Positions 2,991-20,692 of a stretch of DNA of 64,000 bases are shown piece after piece. Under the pieces are notes generated by a model. It did no database searches. It was not told where the DNA came from and saw only the letters and a list, made by a program, of their open reading frames with translations. How positions within the stretch are numbered: position 1 is the first letter of the stretch; each line of letters begins with the position of its first letter. Source of the DNA: Alicyclobacillus pomorum DSM 14955 (GTDB lineage: Bacteria > Bacillota > Bacilli > Alicyclobacillales > Alicyclobacillaceae); assembly GCF_000472905.1 (NCBI RefSeq), contig NZ_AXAR01000015.1:17607-81606 (forward strand), given 5' to 3'. The translations under genes were made by a program, and so were the position numbers.

Positions 2991-3105
2991 ATGCAATGCA
3001 TGACTATTTGTGTGAGAGAGGCCTCACCATCTATCCCGAAAAACTTTCAGACGTAGACACTTTCCGAATCAAGCTTTTTGGAAATTGCTCGAAAGGTACC
3101 TTCTG
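2991..3105 (+). pseudogene. remnant of 2-aminoethylphosphonate aminotransferase C-terminus
   Basis: Reading codons from about 2991 gives HAMHDYLCERGLTIYPEKL, then a segment ending in TFRIKLFGN and a stop at 3105. This matches the C-terminal part of the intact phnW at 14488 to 15609 (HVMHDYFYERGFTIYPGKL, then TFRIANIGD). There is no start codon or upstream domain. The fragment is followed by an ATP-grasp gene, exactly as the intact phnW is. It is therefore the leftover 3-prime end of a duplicated phosphonate operon. Confidence 0.8.
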
Positions 3106-3149
3106 AGAATAGGTATCTTTTGCGAAACTTAAGAAAAGGAAGATGGTCG

Positions 3150-3899
3150 ATGAAAACGTTTTTCTGGTCCGGAAAATGGACAAAATTTCAGTTGATGAGA
3201 AGCTTTAAAGAACTGAGGGAACACTTACCGCAGACCCGAAGACTGACGAAAAAAGCCTTTACGGATCTGCTGGTCAAATACAGAGATATTGTTGTGAAAC
3301 CCGATTTCGGAAGTCGTGGGGAGGGAGTATGTCGAATCTCTGAAGTAGGACAAGATTTGTATGTCATCCACATGGACAATATCCAGACAACTGTAACAGG
3401 GAAGGAAAAGGCGTATGAATCTGTGAGAAGCATGGGGAAAATGAGCAGCCACATCGTTCAGCGTCGGATTCCTCTGGCAACCATTGATGGCAGGCCGTTC
3501 GACCTCCGTGTCATTGTGCAGCGCAAAAAATTATCGGATGCGTGGAAAGTAACCGGGAAAGTTGCGAAAGTGGCAGGCGAAGGCTATATCGTCACGAATA
3601 TCGAAAAGAGTAAAGGCTCCGTCCTCCCCCTGAAAACCGCACTCGAACGGTCATCACTCAAACACTGTTCCCGCCGAGCTCTAGTATCAGATATAAACAA
3701 AGTCTCCTTACTGTCAGCCGAGAGGCTTGGTAACACTGAACTATATTCGGATCAACGCGTTTTTGGAATGGATCTAGGATTGGATCAGGACGGCCATGTA
3801 TGGGTGATTGAAGTGAACCTTGCGCCCCTGTTCTCCCACTTTCGTTACCTGAAGGACAAGACGATGTATCGTCGAATCATGGAATATGACAGGGGATAG
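3150..3899 (+). CDS. YheC/YheD-like ATP-grasp protein (short form)
   Basis: The protein has 249 residues from the ATG at 3150; an earlier in-frame ATG at 3078 lies inside the aminotransferase remnant and is not supported by the alignment. It is a close paralogue of the ATP-grasp gene at 13726: both share KWTK at the N-terminus, the lysine/glycine loop VKPDFGSRGEGV, the core RPFDLRVIVQR, WKVTGKVAKVAG, and the metal-binding end FGMDLGLD with VWVIEVN and DKTMYRRI. ATP-grasp enzymes make an acyl phosphate and join a carboxylate to an amine or thiol. YheC and YheD of Bacillus are coat-associated. The substrate is unknown. Its position behind the aminotransferase remnant suggests it was part of a second phosphonate operon. 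It is intact, so it may still work. Confidence 0.8.
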   Translation: MKTFFWSGKWTKFQLMRSFKELREHLPQTRRLTKKAFTDLLVKYRDIVVKPDFGSRGEGVCRISEVGQDLYVIHMDNIQTTVTGKEKAYESVRSMGKMSSHIVQRRIPLATIDGRPFDLRVIVQRKKLSDAWKVTGKVAKVAGEGYIVTNIEKSKGSVLPLKTALERSSLKHCSRRALVSDINKVSLLSAERLGNTELYSDQRVFGMDLGLDQDGHVWVIEVNLAPLFSHFRYLKDKTMYRRIMEYDRG

Positions 3900-4510: not shown

Positions 4511-5758
4511 ATGTCCTCTCCATTGTTTGTCGGAATTGATGTAGGCAGCGAGTCCAACGTGGTTTGCTGTTTAACGAGGGACGATGAGAAGCGACCTGTT
4601 AGCCGATTCACTGTTACCAACAATCGTCCCGGCATTCTGGAGTTTCAGGATCGCATTACTAAGTTGGCTCAGCAGCTCCAGTCTGAAGAGATTCTTTTCG
4701 GTCTCGAACATACCGGCTGTTACTCAACTCATGCCGCAATGTATCTGCAACGTCACTTGGACTTCGGCGTTCCGCGTAAGGTGTACGTCTTCAATCCCAG
4801 TCTCATCCGGGAGTTTAAGAAGTCCCATTATCTGAGCGCCCCCAAGAACGACCGAGTGGATGCCTGGTTCATCGCAGCCAAACTTCGGACAGGCCTTCTC
4901 CCGCATCCGTTTATCTGGAGCGAACCGCTTATGGCGCTGCAACGCCTGACACGTGCTCGCTATCATCTGATGCAGGATCTGACTCGGGAAAGCAATTTCC
5001 TCATGACGAACCTGTTTCTCAAGTTCAGTGATTACTCCCTCACTGGACCCTTTCGTAGAAACAAGCTCTCTGCCACTTCGCTGGCCGTCATAGAGGAATT
5101 CGAATCCGTCGAGGAACTCGCTGAGATGCCCCTTGAGCGTCTTATTGACTTCCTTGTCGAGCATGGAAAGAATCGCTTCGACAATCCCGAGGTAGTCGCT
5201 CAGGCTTTGCAGAAGGCCGCTCGCTCTTCGTACCGGTTGCCGCAGTCCATGTCGGACTCGGTGAATCTTGCAATGGCTTCCAGCATTCGCATGATTCGAA
5301 CGGCACAAGAGCAACTCAAGGCGCTGCGTAAAGGCATTGAGGATCACTTGGCAACGATCCCACAAACGCTTGATTCCATTCCCGGTATCGGTCCCATTTT
5401 CGCTTCTGGCATTGTGGCTGAACTAGACGTTAGCCAGTTCAGGAGCCACGCGGAAGCAGCAAAGTACACCGGGCTCGCTTGGACTGTTAACCAATCCGGG
5501 AAATTCACAGCAAACCGAACTCGACTCATTCTTTCTGGCAACCGCTATCTGAAGTACTACATGGTTGAAGCGGCCAACAGCGTCCGGGTGCACGACCCTG
5601 TTTTTGCCGAGTACTACGCCAAGAAGAAAGCGGAGCCCAAAGAATTTGCCGAGGGACGTGCCCTTGCGCTTACAGCCCGGAAACTGATGCGGGTGGTCTT
5701 CTATCTGCTAAAGACCAACCGACTCTACACTCCGGAGGTGATCCGACAAGAGGCATAA
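4511..5758 (+). CDS. IS110-family transposase (DEDD recombinase)
   Basis: The protein has 415 residues. A strong AAAGGAGGTG site precedes the ATG at 4511. The N-terminal RuvC-like domain starts with GIDVGSE (first catalytic Asp), has the Glu in FGLEHTG and the two Asp of NDRVDAW. The C-terminal Tnp domain has SIPGIGPIFASGI, the helix-hairpin-helix-like segment, and NQSGKF, which holds the proposed catalytic Ser. Length and motif order are normal and no frame break is seen, so the element is probably active. Such enzymes recombine DNA under guidance of a bridge RNA encoded in the element. Confidence 0.92.
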   Translation: MSSPLFVGIDVGSESNVVCCLTRDDEKRPVSRFTVTNNRPGILEFQDRITKLAQQLQSEEILFGLEHTGCYSTHAAMYLQRHLDFGVPRKVYVFNPSLIREFKKSHYLSAPKNDRVDAWFIAAKLRTGLLPHPFIWSEPLMALQRLTRARYHLMQDLTRESNFLMTNLFLKFSDYSLTGPFRRNKLSATSLAVIEEFESVEELAEMPLERLIDFLVEHGKNRFDNPEVVAQALQKAARSSYRLPQSMSDSVNLAMASSIRMIRTAQEQLKALRKGIEDHLATIPQTLDSIPGIGPIFASGIVAELDVSQFRSHAEAAKYTGLAWTVNQSGKFTANRTRLILSGNRYLKYYMVEAANSVRVHDPVFAEYYAKKKAEPKEFAEGRALALTARKLMRVVFYLLKTNRLYTPEVIRQEA

Positions 5759-7151: not shown

Positions 7152-7349
7152 ATGCCAAGGAAGTCCGTAAAAAAGCCGTCTGCATTCAATGCACTGAAGC
7201 AACATCTTGCGGGTAAAGGAAATGTTTTTGGGATTCTCGATATGTTAAAAAAGTCAATTCCGAGCAGGAGAGGAATGATGGTATGCCGTCGAATGGGGAT
7301 CCGTCCAAATTGGAGCTTCACCGGTTGTATTCCAAGCATCCTCATCTGA
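7152..7349 (+). CDS. small basic hypothetical protein overlapping the ATP-grasp start
   Basis: A 65-residue frame has a very good ribosome site (AAAGGAGGAGG) before its ATG. The first 40 residues are lysine-rich (MPRKSVKKPSAFNALKQHL). It overlaps the next gene by 67 bp in another frame, which would couple their translation. It could also be the N-terminal part of an ATP-grasp protein separated by a frameshift; the short-form paralogues, however, do not need such an extension. I recognise no family. Confidence 0.45.
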   Translation: MPRKSVKKPSAFNALKQHLAGKGNVFGILDMLKKSIPSRRGMMVCRRMGIRPNWSFTGCIPSILI

Positions 7350-8050
7350 GCAAGCATTTGCCGCCGACATCGAGTTTAAGTTCGAGTTCTCTGAAGCAAT
7401 ACTTGGACGATTATCGAGCGGTGTACATCAAGGGGAGCAATCAGCATACCGGGGCGGGCATTATAAAGGCAGTGAAAATGAAACATGGTTATCGCTTCGT
7501 GAAAGTGCGAGGTAAAGCGGTTGATGTGCAATCGTTCAAGGATCTATATGATAAGATCAAGGATGGAAGACCCCGTCGGTCCATCGTTGTCCAAAAAGCA
7601 ATCGATTTGGCCAGCATTAACGGGAGGCCTTTCTCCATTCGTCTCATGCTGATGAAGGACGGAAAAGAAAAATGGCAATACGCGGGAATGCTGGCGAAAG
7701 TAGCGGGAAAAGGTAGCGTCATCACCAATGTTCGGCGCGGCGGAGGTTATGCCGCGACAGTCGATGATGCTTTGGCCCAATCTTTAGGCTACGGCCGAAA
7801 ACGGATCGAGAAAGTGAAACGGAAGCTGATCAGCATTGGTTTTGAGATTGTTCGTCATGCAACGAAAAACGGTTACCGAACTCATGAAAGTGGAATAGAT
7901 TTATGCGTGGACAAAAAGGGATATATATGGATTATTGAAGTAAACCTTTTATATCCTTCGTACGGACTGTTTAATCGGCTCCAAGATAAAACATTCTACC
8001 GCAGGATTAAAAGTTTGGCAGCCGCTTACAGAAAGCATTCAAACAGCTAA
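7283..8050 (+). CDS. YheC/YheD-like ATP-grasp protein (short form)
   Basis: The protein has 255 residues. It shows the family plan: an N-terminal basic helix and LPPT turn, VYIKGSNQHTGAGI in the place of the first ATP loop (a Ser-Asn where others have a Pro), VVQKAIDLA, GRPFSIRLMLM, KVAGKGSVITNV, and the metal-binding GIDLCVDKKG with IWIIEVN and DKTFYRRI. The core is complete, so an active ATP-dependent ligase is likely, but the altered loop may change nucleotide binding. It follows the third copy of the promoter repeat that also precedes the two tiny membrane peptides. Start choice is uncertain because of the overlapping frame at 7152. Confidence 0.75.
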   Translation: MPSNGDPSKLELHRLYSKHPHLSKHLPPTSSLSSSSLKQYLDDYRAVYIKGSNQHTGAGIIKAVKMKHGYRFVKVRGKAVDVQSFKDLYDKIKDGRPRRSIVVQKAIDLASINGRPFSIRLMLMKDGKEKWQYAGMLAKVAGKGSVITNVRRGGGYAATVDDALAQSLGYGRKRIEKVKRKLISIGFEIVRHATKNGYRTHESGIDLCVDKKGYIWIIEVNLLYPSYGLFNRLQDKTFYRRIKSLAAAYRKHSNS

Positions 8051-9541: not shown

Positions 9542-9607
9542 AATGTAGGTGGTTGGCCGTATCAATCCCACCGCATACCGAATTAAATACGGTATCGGCT
9601 ACAAAAC
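9542..9607 (+). repeat. 66-bp leader shared with the ATP-grasp operon at 19 kb (copy 1)
   Basis: It aligns without gaps to 19034 to 19099 with 58 of 66 bases identical. It contains an imperfect dyad, CCGcATACCG and CGGTATCGG, around an AATTAAATA centre. It ends 16 bp before the kamA start. It may be an operator, promoter region or 5-prime RNA element. Confidence 0.8.
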
Positions 9608-9623
9608 GGGAGGTGTCCGTGTT

Positions 9624-10793
9624 ATGCCTGCAAAATATCTTACGAACTTAGATAAAATCCCCAATTTAACCGAAGGCGAAAAGGAAACATTGAAACACGT
9701 CACTGAAAAGTACGTTTTTCGTGTTAATGACTATTATTTAAGCCTGATTGACTGGTCGGATCCTGATGATCCATTGCGGAGACTAGTGATACCAGACTCG
9801 AGTGAACTTCTCGAATACGGTCGTTGGGATGCTTCTGATGAAGACACAAACTACGTTGTCAAGGGTTGCCAGCATAAATACAAAACTACAGCCCTGTTGA
9901 TCGTCTCAGAGGTATGTGGGGCATACTGTCGATTTTGTTTTAGAAAACGATTGTTTCGCTCAGACGTTAAAGAAGCGATGTCTGACGTTCGAGAAGGTCT
10001 TGATTACATCGAACGAACCCCTGAAATTAACAATGTCCTACTCACAGGTGGCGACCCATTAGCGTTAGCAACCAACAAGCTTCGTATGATTATTGAAAGG
10101 CTAAGGTCAATCGAACATGTCAAGATTATACGAATCGGTTCCAAAATGCTTGTATTCAATCCCATGAGAATCTACGAAGACCAAGAGCTTCTCGATTTGA
10201 TTCGCCAAAATTCTACAGAAGAGAAGCGAATCTACATTATGGCCCACGTTAACCATCCAAGAGAAATAACTAAGGAAGCCAGAAAGTGTTTCAAAGCCCT
10301 ACACGATGCAGGGGCTATCGTTGTCAATCAAACACCTGTGCTGAAAGGCATCAATGATGACCCAGCCGTACTTGGTGAATTGCTTGATCAACTGTCTTGG
10401 GCTGGGGTTACACCGTATTACTTCTTTGTTAACAGACCCGTTGCCGGAAACAGCGGATTTGTGCTCACACTTGAAGAAGTGTATCGAATCGTTGAGCAAG
10501 CAAAATCAAGAACTTCAGGTCTAGGTAAGCGTGTCAAGCTTTGTATGAGCCATACTTCCGGAAAAATCGAGATTCTTGCGGTTGACAATGGAAAGGCTTA
10601 TCTGAAGTATCATCAGTCGAGAAACGAGGAGTATGGAGAATTTTTGATTTTGGACTGTCCAAAAGGTGCCACATGGTTTGATGATTTGCCAGGTAACGAA
10701 CAGTATTGGACGAAGCCTGTTAAGAAAGCGGAAGATGTCATATCCGTCAACAAGATGCCAGATATTCCACAGAAGAATAATAGATTAGGCTAA
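9624..10793 (+). CDS. KamA-family radical SAM 2,3-aminomutase, altered substrate site
   Basis: The protein has 389 residues from the ATG at 9624, which has GGGAGGTG upstream. It has the radical SAM cluster motif CGAYCRFCF (Cys 98, 102, 105), TGGDPL for SAM binding, and the lysine that would bind PLP (Lys 314). The family moves an amino group from C2 to C3 of an amino acid. In the clostridial lysine enzyme, two Asp (Asp293 and Asp330) bind the substrate side chain; here the aligned positions appear to be Arg 271 (in PYYFFVNRP) and Ser 309. The glutamate enzyme also lacks the two Asp. So this is probably not a lysine aminomutase, and an acidic substrate such as glutamate is possible. An ATP-grasp gene follows 45 bp downstream, suggesting that the beta-amino acid is then ligated. 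Confidence 0.85.
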   Translation: MPAKYLTNLDKIPNLTEGEKETLKHVTEKYVFRVNDYYLSLIDWSDPDDPLRRLVIPDSSELLEYGRWDASDEDTNYVVKGCQHKYKTTALLIVSEVCGAYCRFCFRKRLFRSDVKEAMSDVREGLDYIERTPEINNVLLTGGDPLALATNKLRMIIERLRSIEHVKIIRIGSKMLVFNPMRIYEDQELLDLIRQNSTEEKRIYIMAHVNHPREITKEARKCFKALHDAGAIVVNQTPVLKGINDDPAVLGELLDQLSWAGVTPYYFFVNRPVAGNSGFVLTLEEVYRIVEQAKSRTSGLGKRVKLCMSHTSGKIEILAVDNGKAYLKYHQSRNEEYGEFLILDCPKGATWFDDLPGNEQYWTKPVKKAEDVISVNKMPDIPQKNNRLG

Positions 10794-10838
10794 AACCGCT
10801 ATTGTCATTCGACCCAAATACAATGAGGGGTGCTTATA

Positions 10839-12086
10839 GTGGATAAAAAAGGTGTAAATTCTAGATCACGTAAGCCAATTGTCGGTGTACTCGTAGCCAA
10901 TACAATGACCCGGCTATTAAATGCACAAAATCGTCGCTTTTGGTCTTACATCCGATTTGCGATGCTTGTCAAAGCAAATAAGGAAGCAAAGGATACCGTC
11001 TACATTTTTTCACCAGAAGATGTAAATTTATCTCGTGAAAGAGTAAGAGGGACGTATTTCAATACAGCAAAAAGGAGATGGGAAAAGAAAGATTTTCCGC
11101 TCCCAGATGTATTATATGTTCGAGGTGGTGTGAGGCACGGGGCTTCGTTTAGAAATATTCTGAAAGAATTCCGGAGAATGGGCATCAAAAGAATTAACCC
11201 TATATACGCATTCGATAAATGGGATCTTTATCAAAAATTAAGTCAAGACGAAAACGTACGCCCATTTTTACCCTATACCGAGCGTCTTGAAAATATAGAT
11301 GACTTAAAAAACGTACTCCAAAATCGAAATGAAATCTATATAAAGGGGTGTCGTGGAAGTCGCGGAAAGACGGTTATGCGAGTTGTTAAACTACCCCAAG
11401 GCGGTTATGAGTACAGCTATTTTGGAGAGAAATTGGTTCGTAAAGAAGTGAATAATATAGAAGATCTATTGCTTGCTGTAAGAACATTTTTGGGGTCCCG
11501 AAGAATTATTGTTCAGCAGGCGATTGATTTATTAAGAGCAGATCAAGATAGTATTGTAGACTTTCGTGCTGAGGTGCAGAGAAACAAAAAAGGTGAAATA
11601 GAAATTGTCGGAATTCCCATTCGCGTTGGACAACGCCATTCCCCCATTACTATTCATTCTTCCGCATTTAAATTTGACGATTATTTAGGTAAATTATTGC
11701 CTCAGTATTCGTCAAGTCAGCTCGATGGACTGAAAGATAAAATAAGGAATTTTTTAGTATCTGTATATTCAAGTGTTGAAAAAGCGTATGGGAAGTTTGG
11801 TGAAATTGGTATAGACTTCGGTTTGGATAGAGACGGAGCTATATGGTTGATCGAATGTAACGCTAAATCTGCAAAAGTTTCGATAAGAAAAGCCTATGGT
11901 ACAGAAACGCTACGAAAAACTTATTTAAATCCTTTACAATATGCAAAGATATTGGCACGAAAATCGAGTCCATCTCGCGTTCGCACTAGAAAGTATGCCA
12001 AGAAACGAACACTTGACAGGCGAACTATAGGTAAAGTGGCCGCGTACAAGACAAATCAATATTCGAGGAAGACTGCTAGGCAGTAA
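10839..12086 (+). CDS. YheC/YheD-family ATP-grasp protein, full length
   Basis: The protein has 415 residues from the GTG at 10839, with GAGGGG 8 bp upstream. Unlike the five short paralogues, it keeps the N-terminal YheC/D domain (GVLVANTMTRLL, VLYVRGGVRHG) before the ATP-grasp part (IYIKGCRGSRGKTVMRV, IVQQAIDLL, DFRAEVQRN, GIDFGLDRDG with IWLIECN). The C-terminal 50 residues are strongly basic. Bacillus YheC and YheD are spore-coat-associated ATP-grasp proteins. The gene lies 45 bp after kamA on the same strand, probably one operon. It is visibly richer in A and T than the core genes, a sign of transfer. Confidence 0.85.
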   Translation: MDKKGVNSRSRKPIVGVLVANTMTRLLNAQNRRFWSYIRFAMLVKANKEAKDTVYIFSPEDVNLSRERVRGTYFNTAKRRWEKKDFPLPDVLYVRGGVRHGASFRNILKEFRRMGIKRINPIYAFDKWDLYQKLSQDENVRPFLPYTERLENIDDLKNVLQNRNEIYIKGCRGSRGKTVMRVVKLPQGGYEYSYFGEKLVRKEVNNIEDLLLAVRTFLGSRRIIVQQAIDLLRADQDSIVDFRAEVQRNKKGEIEIVGIPIRVGQRHSPITIHSSAFKFDDYLGKLLPQYSSSQLDGLKDKIRNFLVSVYSSVEKAYGKFGEIGIDFGLDRDGAIWLIECNAKSAKVSIRKAYGTETLRKTYLNPLQYAKILARKSSPSRVRTRKYAKKRTLDRRTIGKVAAYKTNQYSRKTARQ

Positions 12087-12656: not shown

Positions 12657-13418
12657 CTAAATCTCCTCCAAACTTGTCCAGATTTCGTCCGCGTGGCGGC
12701 TAATTTCGCCGCGGTAGTCGTTAATAAGAGTACATGTAACTGCCCACGGCTTCTTGCTCATGTGATACGCGAAGGCTTGAAAAACGTTGTAGTCCAAGCG
12801 TTTACTACGCCAATGCTTCTTGTTGTCTTGTTGCCCGGAGTGGCCGATGATGACCACTCTGCAATTTGATGTGTGGACTCGCGTAATACAGAGTAGCATG
12901 TCTTCGATTTCACGTGCGTTCTGAGCCTCGTCAATGATAACGAATGCATCCTCAATGTTAGTTCCGCGCATAGCCCGGTCAGTTATGAGTTCGATGTGCC
13001 CGTTATTCCTTAACTGAATGTACTGGTATTCCGAAATCCCCAGCTCCGTCAAAGAATCGAGGAATGGTTGATACAGGCCACGTTCTTTCTCTTCCGGGGT
13101 CGCATTTCCCGGCAGAAATCCTTCCTTGAGGAAGCGGTCATCGACATAGCGAACATATATAAGCTTCTGACATTCGTTCTTAGACAAACCCTCTAACCCA
13201 ACCATTACTGCGATTGTCGTTTTGCCTGTCCCAGATTTTGCATCACAGAAAGTAACTGGGGTGGCTCGCATGGACTTCGCGTAAGCCCGTTGGTGCTCGT
13301 CCATTACCGAATACAGGTTAGTCTCAATCTTAAGCATACTCAACGGATCTGTGCATGCTTGCTGCTGTTGCCTTTTCCCCATCAGGCTCATCCTCTCGTA
13401 TGCGCTACATTCGGCCAT
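12657..13418 (-). CDS. PhoH-like ATPase, phage type
   Basis: The frame has 253 residues; a start at a later Met (for example MLKIETNLYSVM) is equally possible. Walker A is AKSGTGKTTIA and Walker B is AFVIIDEAQN, both standard for the PhoH family, with a Ser/Thr-rich sensor region (VVIIGHSGQQ). Phage PhoH-like proteins are small P-loop ATPases or helicase-like proteins of unclear role. It is followed by remnants of a typical phage gene, so I regard both as left over from a prophage. The protein itself appears intact. No link to the neighbouring phosphonate genes is seen. Confidence 0.75.
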   Translation of the reverse strand: MAECSAYERMSLMGKRQQQQACTDPLSMLKIETNLYSVMDEHQRAYAKSMRATPVTFCDAKSGTGKTTIAVMVGLEGLSKNECQKLIYVRYVDDRFLKEGFLPGNATPEEKERGLYQPFLDSLTELGISEYQYIQLRNNGHIELITDRAMRGTNIEDAFVIIDEAQNAREIEDMLLCITRVHTSNCRVVIIGHSGQQDNKKHWRSKRLDYNVFQAFAYHMSKKPWAVTCTLINDYRGEISRHADEIWTSLEEI

Positions 13419-13725: not shown

Positions 13726-14484
13726 TTATCGAATTGCTAACCCTTTATGTTTCAAAATTCGACGATACATTGTCCGGTCCTTGAGTTTACGGAAATGGGA
13801 AAGCATTGGTTTTAAATTCGCTTCAATGATCCAAACGCGACCTTCCTGATCTAGTCCCATATCAAATCCAAAAATACGTTGGTTTGAATATAATTTTCTT
13901 TTACTCAGTATCCTGGCTGATAGTAAAGCAACCGTCTCTATTTCAGATAGTAAGGACCGCCGGGAATGCAGTTTTATTGAAGAACTTTGAATGGCGGTTT
14001 TCACCGGAAGCACAGTACCTCCGCTTCTTGTAATGTTAGTGACGACGTAACCTTTACCTGCCACTTTGGCAACTTTACCGGTCACTTTCCATGAATCGGA
14101 TTTTCCTCTGCGCTGCACGATAACCCGTATATCAAAAGGATGGTCGTTGACTTTAGCCAGATGAACCCGGCGTTGAACGATGTAGCTGCGAGACTCGATC
14201 TTCCCGTTTAAATAATCGAATACCTCTTTCTTCCCGTGTACAAATGTTCTTATCTTCTCACAGTGTATTAGGTATTCGTCATGGCCTACCGAAGATAGTC
14301 GAAACACCCCTGCCCCGCGACTGCCGTAGACAGGTTTAAGGATTACATCACCATATTGGTTCATACACTTCCATAAAGCTTTTTGCGTGAACAATCGCGT
14401 TTTCGGTATATGAGGCCTTAGCCCTTCAGATCCACTCATGAACGTGTACTTTGTCCATTTGCTGCGCATGTACGACGTACTCAT
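13726..14484 (-). CDS. YheC/YheD-like ATP-grasp protein, fourth gene of the phosphonate operon
   Basis: The protein has 252 residues with a GAAGGGTG site before the ATG. ATP-grasp signatures are ILKPVYGSRGAGV, IVQRRVHLA, HPFDIRVIVQRRG, KVTGKVAKVAGKGYVVTNI and the metal site FGFDMGLDQEG with VWIIEANLKP (Glu near 221). It starts 4 bp after the phnW stop, so it is translated with the aminoethylphosphonate genes. That makes a ligase that attaches aminoethylphosphonate, or a product of it, to a carboxylate the simplest reading. The close paralogue at 3150 follows a phnW remnant, confirming the link. The acceptor is unknown; a spore polymer or peptide is inferred from the YheC/D family only. Confidence 0.85.
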   Translation of the reverse strand: MSTSYMRSKWTKYTFMSGSEGLRPHIPKTRLFTQKALWKCMNQYGDVILKPVYGSRGAGVFRLSSVGHDEYLIHCEKIRTFVHGKKEVFDYLNGKIESRSYIVQRRVHLAKVNDHPFDIRVIVQRRGKSDSWKVTGKVAKVAGKGYVVTNITRSGGTVLPVKTAIQSSSIKLHSRRSLLSEIETVALLSARILSKRKLYSNQRIFGFDMGLDQEGRVWIIEANLKPMLSHFRKLKDRTMYRRILKHKGLAIR

Positions 14485-14487
14485 CGA

Positions 14488-15609
14488 TCACCCTTCTTTC
14501 ACAAGGAAGTCTATACTCCAAAGGTACTTTCCAAGCACCTCCAAAAACTCTTCAATATCTTTGCAAGTAATATCTCCGATATTCGCGATTCGGAAAGTTG
14601 GTAACTCCTCAAGTTTACCTGGGTAGATCGTGAAGCCTCTCTCGTAAAAATAGTCGTGCATGACATGAAAATCGTAGCCGTCGCACTTCGGCTCAACGAT
14701 GGAAGTAACGAGCTTGGAATGATGTTCCACAGGCACGATATGTTTTAATCCCAATCGCTGAATACCGCTAATCAAACCTTCCCATGATTTTACATATCTT
14801 GCATATCTCCCTTCTATACCCTCCTGCTTTAATTCCACTATCGCTTGCTGGAGTGCGTAAAAGGTCTGTACGGGCGGGGTGAACCTCATTTGTCGAGTTT
14901 CCGAAAAATACTTATATTGAGCATACAGATTGAGATAGTAGTTCTTTGGTTTCTGTTCACCCAAGCTTTCCAATCTCCGTTTATTTGCGATGACAAAGGA
15001 GATCCCAGGCAATCCTTGAAGGTTTTTATTGGAGCTTGCCGCCAAGTAACTTATATTCATTTCCTTCGTCCGGATGGGAATGGCCGCGAATGAACTGATA
15101 GCGTCCACAATCAGATCAATCTGATACCTTCTGCATGTCTCCCCGATGGATTCAATGTCGTTCAACAGGCCGGTCGTCGTCTCATGATGAACTACAGCGA
15201 GATAGGATATTTTGCTGTGGAATTTCTTAATGAAAGTTTCCAACTCTTCACAGTCTATTGGAGTTTGCGGCGAGCTTGTGAATTCATAAAAATTCAGCCC
15301 ATACACGTTCGCAATTTCACACATGCGCTTCCCGTAAGCTCCATTATTGATGATAATCACAGCATCTTTACCCACTACAGAGCTTAATATGGACTCCACC
15401 GCTGCTGTGCCTGAACCGCCGAACATGACGGTGGCGTAATGTTCCGGTTCGGCAACCAAACGGGTCAGCTCTTCGGCGATGTGTTCCATCAGACGCCCAA
15501 ATTCCTTTTCACGTGGGCAAATATCTGGGACCACTTGAGCGAATTTCACGCAATCCGTAGTAGTCGCAGGACCGGGTGTAAGTAATATGTTTCTTTTTAC
15601 GGTTCGCAT
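14488..15609 (-). CDS. phnW: 2-aminoethylphosphonate:pyruvate aminotransferase
   Basis: The protein has 373 residues. The N-terminus LLTPGPATTT, the DAISSFAAIPI segment with its PLP-contacting Asp, and SSNKNLQG with the PLP lysine (Lys 195) are those of PhnW. The enzyme interconverts phosphonoacetaldehyde and 2-aminoethylphosphonate with alanine/pyruvate. Here it should act in synthesis, because it follows PEP mutase and phosphonopyruvate decarboxylase in one operon (it overlaps the decarboxylase by 13 bp), and no phosphonatase or C-P lyase gene is present in the window. Length is normal. Confidence 0.93.
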   Translation of the reverse strand: MRTVKRNILLTPGPATTTDCVKFAQVVPDICPREKEFGRLMEHIAEELTRLVAEPEHYATVMFGGSGTAAVESILSSVVGKDAVIIINNGAYGKRMCEIANVYGLNFYEFTSSPQTPIDCEELETFIKKFHSKISYLAVVHHETTTGLLNDIESIGETCRRYQIDLIVDAISSFAAIPIRTKEMNISYLAASSNKNLQGLPGISFVIANKRRLESLGEQKPKNYYLNLYAQYKYFSETRQMRFTPPVQTFYALQQAIVELKQEGIEGRYARYVKSWEGLISGIQRLGLKHIVPVEHHSKLVTSIVEPKCDGYDFHVMHDYFYERGFTIYPGKLEELPTFRIANIGDITCKDIEEFLEVLGKYLWSIDFLVKEG

Positions 15610-16769
15610 CCTTGTTCTTCTCCTTTAGTCCTAAGAGAGTTGTTCCCTATAAACAGTTGTAACCGCTCCTTGACTTCATGAGGTTTCATTTTCGGACGAC
15701 CGAGCTGTGTGCTGGAACCTTTCACAATGTTCATATGAAGAAAGGTCAATCCACCTGTTTTTTTCCATTCATTGATGTGATGTTCTAACTCGTTAACAGA
15801 GTGAATATAAATCGATTTCTCATACCCGCAGGATGCGGCAATTTCAACGAAATTTACATTATGGGAGACCGTACTCTGTCCTCCCGTCGAATCGTGAGCC
15901 TGATTATCCAGAAGAATATGAAGCATGTTAGGCGGGCTGTAGTACCCATTTGTTGCCAAACTCCCCATGCGCATTAAGAGAGAGCCGTCCCCGTCGATAA
16001 CGACGACATCCAGATGGTCTTTGCTTAGTGCCAAGCCGAGTCCGAGAGAGCTGACGCACCCTAAGGAACCGACCATATATAAATTATTGCAGGTATCTTC
16101 AATCTCGTATAATTCCCGCCCCGTTTTTCCCGTGGTGGCGAGCTGCACCGTTTTACCATCTTTTAACCTATTAATGACCGCCAACACGTCATTTCGGTTG
16201 GGTAGCTGATCCGCTGTATTTTTCAGGATTTTGACTCGGTTCCGATGAGAGGAGAGTTCTTGCTTTTGCAGGTCTTCCGTTTCGAACGTCCCGTGTCTGA
16301 CCACGAAGAAAAAAGGCTGGTTGCAATCAATATACCGGCTTGCCTCCAGCAGCTGCCGCTTCGCTTCCTCCAACTCATAAGACAAATACATCCATCTGAC
16401 CTGCATCAATTCCAGCAGTTGCGTTGTAATTCGCCCCATCAGTTCATGCTGCGGTTCATCGGGAACGCCCGGTTCCCCCCGAAGGCTGACGAACCCGAGA
16501 ACGGGAAGCCGGAACGGATAATTGAGAGACACTAAAGGGGAGACGGCGTTTGCCAGTCCAGAATTTTGCATTAAGGCAACCGGCTTTTTCCCTCCTAAAT
16601 AAGCACCCGCGGCAATGGCGACCGCGTCTCCTTCGTTCACTGCCGCAACGTAGTCGCGCTCATTGATGGCATAGTTGATCAAATCTTTCAAATAGGAGCA
16701 CGGAACCCCTGTGTAAAATGTGAACCCCAATTTTTGCAGTTCTCTTCCGAATGTTTTCGTATTTAACAC
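15597..16769 (-). CDS. phosphonopyruvate decarboxylase
   Basis: The protein has 390 residues and depends on thiamine diphosphate. The N-terminal half has the catalytic Glu context (VNEGDAVAIAAGAYLGG) and the C-terminal half the TPP/Mg motif GDGSLLM (260 to 266), ending near the Asn of LLDNQAHDS. It removes CO2 from phosphonopyruvate to give phosphonoacetaldehyde, the step that makes PEP mutation irreversible. It lies between the PEP mutase gene (21 bp upstream) and phnW (overlapping). Sulfopyruvate decarboxylase is a relative, but the context settles the call. Confidence 0.92.
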   Translation of the reverse strand: MLNTKTFGRELQKLGFTFYTGVPCSYLKDLINYAINERDYVAAVNEGDAVAIAAGAYLGGKKPVALMQNSGLANAVSPLVSLNYPFRLPVLGFVSLRGEPGVPDEPQHELMGRITTQLLELMQVRWMYLSYELEEAKRQLLEASRYIDCNQPFFFVVRHGTFETEDLQKQELSSHRNRVKILKNTADQLPNRNDVLAVINRLKDGKTVQLATTGKTGRELYEIEDTCNNLYMVGSLGCVSSLGLGLALSKDHLDVVVIDGDGSLLMRMGSLATNGYYSPPNMLHILLDNQAHDSTGGQSTVSHNVNFVEIAASCGYEKSIYIHSVNELEHHINEWKKTGGLTFLHMNIVKGSSTQLGRPKMKPHEVKERLQLFIGNNSLRTKGEEQGCEP

Positions 16770-16790
16770 AACTGATCACCCTTACTTTGA

Positions 16791-17666
16791 TTACTTTGAA
16801 GGAAGATACTTTTTTTCCGCCTCTTGAAGCTCATCGACTCTTTGTAGCCGGAAAATTTCTTCAAGGGAGGCCACCCTGCCTTCTACGTTGATAAGGCTTT
16901 CATCCTGGAAAATTTGCTTGGATATCTTTTGAATCGCATCAATAGATGCCCGCAAATTATGGTTTGCCCAGATTGCAACACTTACCCCTAATTCCATAAA
17001 ACGGTTGGTCGGAGTCGTATGATATTTTGTAGGCACAATAACCACCGGCAGTCTTCCGTTCCATTCTTTCATAAAAGCTTCAATTTCAGTGACGTCTGAT
17101 TTGTTGCTGTGTATAAGAACGGCGTCCGTGCCTGCTTGCCGATAAGCCTCCGCACGTCGCAGCGCCTCCTTCAAGCCCAAGCCCGCTATAAAAGCTTCCA
17201 CTCTCGTCACGACCACAAAATCTTCGTCATGTTGCGTGTCCTTCATCGCTTTAATCTTGCCGCAAAATTCATCGATATCGGCGAGCGGTTGGGATTTGCT
17301 ATTAATGAACGAGTTCGTTTTCGGAAACAGCTTATCTTCGATGCATGCGCCCGCGATATTGCGTTGCTCCAATTTTTTAACGAGCCGTCTTGCATTATTG
17401 AAATTGCCGTATCCAGTATCTCCGTCCAGTAAAATTGGAATGGATGTGGCGTCGCTCATAAATTCCAAAACGTCCAGCACCTGAGTCCAGGAAGCCTCAT
17501 TGTTGTCTCTGACCCCCAGGCTCGCGGAAATAGATAAACCGCTGGCCCAAATCCCTTTAAAACCTGCTTCCTCCACAATTGTTGCCGACAGCCCGTTATG
17601 GGCTTCCATTAAAAACTCCAGATGTTGCGAGTGGATTAAAGTTTTTAACTGAGATGTCTTTTTCAT
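16791..17666 (-). CDS. pepM: phosphoenolpyruvate mutase
   Basis: The protein has 291 residues from the ATG at 17666, which has a perfect AGGAGG site 7 bp upstream; a longer in-frame extension to 17813 has no such site. The diagnostic EDK-x5-NS motif is present as [11 protein letters not shown] (110 to 120), together with DGDTGYG for the metal. The motif separates PEP mutases from isocitrate lyase-type relatives. The enzyme makes the C-P bond by rearranging PEP to phosphonopyruvate. It is the first gene of a four-gene operon with the decarboxylase, phnW and an ATP-grasp gene. Confidence 0.95.
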
Positions 17667-19197: not shown

Positions 19198-19938
19198 ATG
19201 AAGCATACCGTCATCCGCAGCAAAATGAAAAAGGGAAAACCTCTCATGGATGATCCGATGATTTCGGTTTATGTACCGGAAACACACTGGTTTCATGTTA
19301 CAAGCCTCCAAAGCATGCTCCGCACGTATTCTACCGTGTATATCAAACCAGATAAAGGTAGAAGAGGAAACGGAGTAATTCGGGTAAAAAAGCTGAACGA
19401 TTCGGAAAGTGAGATTTCGTATAGACAGACATCTCAAAGGTGCTCTACGAAAAAACTAATTGTGGAACTCAAAAAGATACTGCATCCCAAAAAGGAGTAC
19501 ATCATTCAGCAGGGTATTGATTTGGCAACCTATCACCATCGTCCATTTGATGTACGTGTTGTACTACAAAAGCCTTTGAACCGGTGGCATCTTACCTGGA
19601 TCAGTGCAAAAGTCGCACCCCGAAAAACTTCCGTTGTCACCAATGTGTCAAAAGGAGCAAAGGACGTGAAAATAATCAAGACGTTACAAGGATTAGATCA
19701 ACCTTTGAACGTGTTTGAGGTTCAGCGGGAATTAATAGACATCTCATATCAAATGGCTCAAATATTGGGCTCTCATTTTCCCTTTAATATCGTCGGTTTA
19801 GATATGGGTATCGATAAGCATGGTAAAATATGGTTTATCGAAGCGAATACCAAACCGGATTTCAAAGGTTTGAGAAAACTGGATCGAAATCAGTATCGAA
19901 GATATCTAGAAGCAAAAAGATTGATCGGCAAAAGGTGA
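19198..19938 (+). CDS. YheC/YheD-like ATP-grasp protein (short form)
   Basis: The protein has 246 residues. It follows the family plan: VPETHWF near the N-terminus, VYIKPDKGRRGNGVIRV as ATP loop, IIQQGIDLA, RPFDVRVVLQK, KVAPRKTSVVTNV and GLDMGIDKHG with IWFIEANTKP. The tail is shorter than in the paralogue at 13726, and the DKTMYRR signature is changed to DRNQYRRY. It forms an operon with the next ATP-grasp gene (4 bp apart) and sits behind the leader shared with kamA. A ligase for an amino or carboxyl group is likely; the substrate is unknown. Confidence 0.8.
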   Translation: MKHTVIRSKMKKGKPLMDDPMISVYVPETHWFHVTSLQSMLRTYSTVYIKPDKGRRGNGVIRVKKLNDSESEISYRQTSQRCSTKKLIVELKKILHPKKEYIIQQGIDLATYHHRPFDVRVVLQKPLNRWHLTWISAKVAPRKTSVVTNVSKGAKDVKIIKTLQGLDQPLNVFEVQRELIDISYQMAQILGSHFPFNIVGLDMGIDKHGKIWFIEANTKPDFKGLRKLDRNQYRRYLEAKRLIGKR

Positions 19939-19942
19939 TCTT

Positions 19943-20692
19943 ATGTCAATTAAGAAACACCAGGTTAAAAGCAAGTTAGCGGTTGCTTACCAGCTCATGC
20001 ACACACCTGAGGTTGAAGGCCATATTCCTGAAACGGAACTGCTATACGAAAATTCGTTCAAACGCATGATGAAAAAACATGGTAAGGCCTACATCAAGCC
20101 CGATCGGGGAAGAAAATCCAGGGGAGTAATGCAGGTAGAAAGGTTAAAGGATAACCGATTCAAAATAAGGCAAGGATCCGACATGGAATATGTAGATTCA
20201 CATGAGCTATGGACAAAAATCAAGGACCTGACAAGAGACAGGAGGTATCTCATTCAACAGGCTATAGACAGTGTGACGAAGGATCGGAGGCACTTTGATC
20301 TTCGTTGCCATGTACTGAGAATCAACGGTAAATGGAAGATTGGCGGTATTTGTGGAAGGTTGGGGAAACGGGGTAGTGTTGTGACAACATCTCATGCCGG
20401 CGGTACCCCAACGCTCATCAAAACACTCTTTACCCGACATTTAAGGTATTCCCGAAGAGAAACATCGGATATGATTCAGAAAGTAGAGAAATGTGTCGTC
20501 AAAACCGTTAACAATGTAAGTCGAATGTATCCAAATCTTAAAGAGTACGCCGTAGACATAGGAATTGACCCCAAGAAGCGGATATGGATTTACGAGGTGA
20601 ATATTGAACCGCTAATTAGGGGCAATTTTAAATTGTTACCTGATAAAACTCTGTATCGAAGAATTCGATACATGAGGAAGACTGCAAAGTAA
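19943..20692 (+). CDS. YheC/YheD-like ATP-grasp protein (short form)
   Basis: The protein has 249 residues with AAGGTGATC before the ATG. It has IPETELL, AYIKPDRGRKSRGVMQV, LIQQAIDSV, HFDLRCHVLR, and the metal-binding end AVDIGIDPKK with IWIYEVNIEP and DKTLYRRI. KRGSVVTTSHAGG replaces the usual VTNI segment. It is the second gene of a pair of tandem ATP-grasp genes; two different ATP-grasp proteins may act in sequence or as a heterodimer. Only short-form family members with the same order of motifs help here, so the substrate is open. Confidence 0.8.
   Translation: MSIKKHQVKSKLAVAYQLMHTPEVEGHIPETELLYENSFKRMMKKHGKAYIKPDRGRKSRGVMQVERLKDNRFKIRQGSDMEYVDSHELWTKIKDLTRDRRYLIQQAIDSVTKDRRHFDLRCHVLRINGKWKIGGICGRLGKRGSVVTTSHAGGTPTLIKTLFTRHLRYSRRETSDMIQKVEKCVVKTVNNVSRMYPNLKEYAVDIGIDPKKRIWIYEVNIEPLIRGNFKLLPDKTLYRRIRYMRKTAK

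Follow-up and report, generated by a model that had tools for sequence, protein, structure and literature searches.

Why should a gene for an ATP-grasp enzyme stand directly behind the genes for the synthesis of 2-aminoethylphosphonate (AEP)? The question is raised by a four-gene operon on the reverse strand of a 64,000-nucleotide stretch of Alicyclobacillus pomorum DSM 14955 (contig NZ_AXAR01000015.1, positions 17,607 to 81,606; hereafter the window, with positions counted from its first letter). The operon consists of pepM (16791..17666), encoding a single-domain phosphoenolpyruvate (PEP) mutase of 291 amino acids, ppd (15597..16769; phosphonopyruvate decarboxylase), phnW (14488..15609; AEP aminotransferase, here read in the biosynthetic direction) and a gene (13726..14484) for a 252-amino-acid ATP-grasp protein of the YheC/D type (PF14398), which we propose to be an AEP-amide ligase. 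YheC and YheD of Bacillus subtilis are presumably members of the same family; YheD is a spore-coat protein for which we know of no function. Many spore formers keep AEP genes beside such spore-coat-type ligase genes, and this genomic pattern suggests that AEP is attached through an amide bond, probably on the spore surface.

PepM, Ppd and PhnW, all encoded in the one operon, exceed the curated cut-offs of the NCBIfam equivalog profiles TIGR02320 (387 bits, cut-off 320), TIGR03297 (406 bits, cut-off 313) and TIGR03301 (385 bits, cut-off 361), respectively. On the basis of these family assignments, the three enzymes are almost certainly producers of AEP. The first-pass annotation had described the four genes as nearly contiguous on one strand, with an intact EDK-x5-NS motif in the PEP mutase. 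Both points were confirmed: the motif is present in PepM, and the genes are separated by a gap of 21 bp (pepM/ppd), an overlap of 13 bp (ppd/phnW) and a gap of 3 bp (phnW/ATP-grasp). The start of pepM is an ATG at 17666 with AGGAGGT upstream. A search for a terminator-like site at the phnW/ATP-grasp junction found none, and the count of sigma-70 sites was below that in shuffles. The ATP-grasp protein matches PF14398 with an E value of 2.6e-55 and 188 bits (Pfam gathering cut-off 26.8).

Is this arrangement peculiar to the window? In a first survey, covering the 80 closest PepM loci and the genome G006, an ATP-grasp gene was found within 3 kb in 40 of the 45 loci with a single-domain PepM, in 35 cases on the same strand and within 300 bp, and a stand-alone ATP-grasp gene was almost always missing from loci with a two-domain PepM. 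Gene calling missed PepM in locus L044 and scored that of L071 as two-domain; ATP-grasp genes are present in both. To avoid selection, a second survey was made of 399 sampled Bacilli genomes, of which 34 encode PepM, and the neighbourhoods of 34 PepM genes were read (those of the window and of G006 not counted). A same-strand PF14398 gene lies within 300 bp in 18 of the 20 loci with a single-domain PepM and Ppd. One of the other two has a PF14398 gene approximately 1.4 kb away on the opposite strand, and one has none. Chance adjacency of the ATP-grasp gene and pepM, expected at about 0.4% per locus, was ruled out by this frequency and by the recurrence across genera. Four loci with a long PepM (L119, L120, L123 and L130) have no ATP-grasp gene, and L125 carries the PhnW fusion. 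In L122, L135 and L144 a long YheC/D-containing protein is encoded upstream; its counterpart in L051 is a fusion of a COOH-NH2 ligase with YheC/D and stands ahead of a Mur ligase. Six distant PepM-like loci are without an ATP-grasp gene.

The linked ligases are also related by descent. In a tree of 174 PF14398 domains, most of the ATP-grasp proteins encoded downstream of phnW form one supported clade of 53 sequences (clade A), all from pepM loci, including the window copies at 13726 and 3078. When the closest sequences from pepM-negative genomes were added, a core of 51 was retained, 50 of them from pepM loci. A search of the 399 genomes with a clade-A profile gave matches of at least 332 bits in 19 genomes, all 19 encoding pepM (hypergeometric 1e-23), a test that is partly circular, pepM-linked sequences having been used to build the profile; this objection does not touch the lack of such matches in the remaining genomes. 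The linkage of clade A to pepM spans many genera. Where phnW precedes the clade-A gene, the junction was measured in 45 cases and lies between -22 and +26 bp in 41 of them. Furthermore, PhnW and the ATP-grasp protein of Gorillibacterium timonense are a single protein of approximately 630 amino acids, and neither an internal start nor a ribosome site was found at the fusion junction. Together, these comparative genomic data make it very likely that the clade-A ligase acts in the AEP pathway.

It might nevertheless be supposed that the ATP-grasp enzyme uses some other amine and that AEP is employed separately, for example in the decoration of a polysaccharide or teichoic acid, with the linkage reflecting shared expression during sporulation. 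Many YheC/D paralogues are found in the absence of pepM, so the family has other substrates, and amino acids could come from partners of the KamA type. We consider this explanation unlikely in view of the PhnW-ATP-grasp fusion, the near restriction of clade A to pepM genomes, and the fact that PepM and PhnW here are without the nucleotidyltransferase domain known from other AEP loci.

The predicted structure indicates what kind of reaction the ligase may catalyse. A confident AlphaFold model of the 13726 protein (predicted local distance difference test, pLDDT, 92.6) has its best PDB matches in ArgX together with LysW, its carrier protein, TTLL6, LysX and RimK, with Z scores of 16.5-17, and the ATP/Mg residues K50, R120, D208, E221 and N223 are kept family-wide. 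ArgX, LysX, TTLL6 and RimK attach amino acids to protein carboxylates, thus joining an amine to a carboxylate. AEP offers an amine and is without a carboxylate, so the formation of an amide between its amine and the carboxylate of an acceptor would be the simplest reaction. In the proposed pathway, PepM, Ppd and PhnW would convert PEP to AEP, and the adjacent ligase would activate a carboxylate with ATP. The resulting acyl phosphate would then be joined to the AEP amine. The acceptor would most likely be a carboxylate of a polypeptide deposited on the developing spore, and the remaining YheC/D ligases of the window, together with a KamA-family enzyme, would probably add or prepare further units. 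Activation and joining of the phosphonate group of AEP, rather than its amine, could be imagined for a superfamily that includes enzymes other than carboxylate-amine ligases, kinases among them (PMC4431377). The closest folds are mostly carboxylate-amine ligases, and we regard this variant as very improbable. The proposal that AEP is the amine substrate, acting as the nucleophile in amide formation, is in our judgement probable. The first-pass annotation had likewise suggested an amide-linked AEP, and this part of its reading remains the best one given the pepM-linked clade, the PhnW fusion and the ligase fold.

Other AEP loci carry an NTP-transferase domain on PhnW or PepM instead (seen in L051, L076, L102 and L104); the ATP-grasp enzyme largely replaces this nucleotidyltransferase. 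Some other pepM loci encode further amide ligases (COOH-NH2_lig, Mur ligase), in line with amide formation. Among them are Bacillus-type loci with a two-domain PepM (L051:5889-14911, L064, L065, L084, L090 and L104), which encode an upstream protein (in L051 the COOH-NH2 ligase-YheC/D fusion), a Mur ligase, an NTP-transferase-PhnW fusion and a Nudix protein. By gene content, these are predicted to be another amide-ligase AEP cluster.

Where would the amide be placed? SpoIVA is encoded in 28 of the 29 pepM genomes tested, the exception being G330, which has a long-PepM locus of the nucleotidyltransferase type and no linked ATP-grasp gene. A small protein of the SpoVIF family is encoded directly 3' of the ATP-grasp gene in L143 (5159-5419) and L146 (6781-7047). 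Similar small proteins were seen in L052 and L145. In B. subtilis, yheC and yheD belong to the sigma-E/SpoIIID regulon (PMC517825), and YheD covers the spore, forming a shell (PMC7911427). A polypeptide of the spore surface is on these grounds a plausible acceptor, to which we give slightly less than an even chance.

Several observations weigh against the proposal. One core member of clade A (L178) comes from a genome without a detected pepM. G006, from the same family as the window, has pepM-ppd-phnW without a clade-A ATP-grasp gene, the sole PF14398 gene near its pepM being a divergently oriented one of lineage D (see below). The two routes do not strictly exclude each other, since a nucleotidyltransferase-PhnW fusion is accompanied by a YheC/D domain in some Bacillus loci. 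Of 59 single-type clusters, 12 have a sigma-K-like pattern in the upstream region (3.4 expected), several of the 12 being close relatives, and a search of the window for a sporulation promoter gave nothing convincing for the operon. As the promoter evidence is weak, the spore acceptor is the least certain step. Finally, no acceptor gene conserved across the clusters was found in a search for one. A conserved small acceptor gene within the cluster was rejected as a general feature, as the SpoVIF-like protein is found in a few loci only. All things considered, we put the chance that the complete proposal is correct, in which AEP would be amide-linked by a YheC/D ligase to a carboxylate, most likely of a spore-coat polypeptide, at about evens.

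The first-pass annotation had treated the ATP-grasp gene as a single one built into the operon. This did not hold: the window has five further PF14398 genes, all on the forward strand, and the operon gene is one of as many as six ATP-grasp genes that form a set with a KamA-family gene (PF14398 matches genome-wide number 12). The second clade-A gene (3078..3899; profile match 345.9 bits) is located 10 kb from the operon and encodes the closest relative of the operon ATP-grasp by tree path (53% identity). The other four represent separate lineages: D (7283..8050), E (10830..12086; with an N-terminal extension; PF14398 E 7.7e-69), B (19198..19938; E 2.6e-52) and C (19943..20692; E 2.9e-48), as placed by the tree. 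The orthologue of the lineage-D gene is divergent beside pepM in G006 and lies within the pepM operon in Cohnella. The lineage-E gene is immediately 3' of kamA both in the window and in other pepM loci. Relatives of the lineage-B gene precede pepM in Paenibacillus and follow phnW in Cohnella, and lineage C is common to the pepM loci of Cohnella and Thermoactinomycetaceae.

In several Cohnella loci (L056, L077 and L093) a single operon contains, in this order, pepM, kamA, an ATP-grasp gene, ppd, in some cases phnW, and three ATP-grasp genes. In the tree, each of the four ATP-grasps of Cohnella shares a lineage with one of the window genes at 10830, 19198, 19943 and 7283, so the window seems to hold a dispersed version of the Cohnella set, with the two clade-A genes in addition. 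As most of the additional window genes match this compact operon, the system is larger than the first-pass annotation had assumed. A broken group II intron reverse transcriptase (575-2243) and an IS110-type transposase (4511-5758), identified by eye near the ATP-grasp genes, are possible causes of the dispersal. The genome of the window has one more PF14398 cluster (L037:6005-11473, G000:C8), in which three ATP-grasp genes, all with counterparts in relatives, lie beside a COOH-NH2_lig gene (PF14395); it has no pepM.

The KamA-family radical-SAM gene is located at 9549..10793 on the forward strand (TIGR00238, 217 bits, cut-off 199). The kamA-ATP-grasp pair is separated from the operon by a gene for a PhoH-like ATPase (12657-13418; PF02562), which lies on the operon strand. 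KamA was rejected as a lysine 2,3-aminomutase, since Asp293, which contacts the lysine side chain, is replaced by Arg, both in the window and in all 11 other readable homologues from pepM loci. This replacement suggests an acidic substrate. KamA was also rejected as an obligate partner: more distant orthologues (L174-L177; 57-62% identity, Arg retained) are found in genomes without a detected pepM, and no ATP-grasp gene was found near kamA in the stretch read (approximately 5 kb on most sides). That an amide-linked AEP decoration of a spore-surface polypeptide is extended by several YheC/D ligases and this unusual aminomutase is a tentative suggestion, which we consider rather less likely than not.

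The several ATP-grasp genes per locus could also speak for a small diffusible phosphonopeptide, in which successive ligases cap AEP with at least one amino acid, as in phosphonopeptide antibiotics. This seems doubtful to us. Neither an exporter nor a resistance family is widespread in the loci (once pepM, ppd, phnW and ATP-grasp are set aside, even the commonest neighbour families are present in at most 15 loci), the ligases belong to a family with spore-coat members, and only the amine of AEP can be capped because it has no carboxylate.

If spore formers do decorate a spore-surface polypeptide with amide-linked AEP in this way, it would be a new phosphonate-based modification of a protein or peptide, and the YheC/D family would gain its first substrate; the clade tied to AEP biosynthesis makes AEP a concrete candidate. 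The clade also suggests that the spores of many soil bacteria carry a stable C-P compound, which would be an additional environmental source of phosphonate and a novel type of amide modification. A literature search found no paper that connects AEP with YheC/D or with the spore coats of bacteria; two likely sources, a survey of amidoligases (Iyer et al. 2009, Mol Biosyst) and a phosphonate branch-point inventory, were outside its reach.

How does the system compare with known ones? The window protein shares with TTL/TTLL, RimK and LysX/ArgX the predicted fold and the ATP/Mg motifs. It aligns with RimK, LysX and ArgX from residue 58-91 or so of those chains and is thus without their N-terminal part, and the substrates differ or are unassigned. 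AEP loci of the PntC type likewise have pepM, ppd and often phnW; their NTP-transferase domain is located on PepM or PhnW, whereas domain profile scans found none on either protein of the window, and an ATP-grasp gene is present instead. ATP-grasp ligases are already known in phosphonopeptide pathways, and those of phosphonoalamide synthesis act on a phosphonate amino acid, whose carboxylate they activate (PMC11867202). The phosphonoalamide and rhizocticin clusters resemble the window in having PepM together with ATP-grasp ligase genes, and differ in that here AEP, with no carboxylate, would precede ligation, the ligases are of the YheC/D type, and no exporter recurs. With YheC and YheD of B. 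subtilis the window proteins have in common the Pfam family and the occurrence in spore formers; YheD forms a shell on the spore (PMC7911427), and the ligase of the operon belongs to a separate clade tied to AEP biosynthesis.
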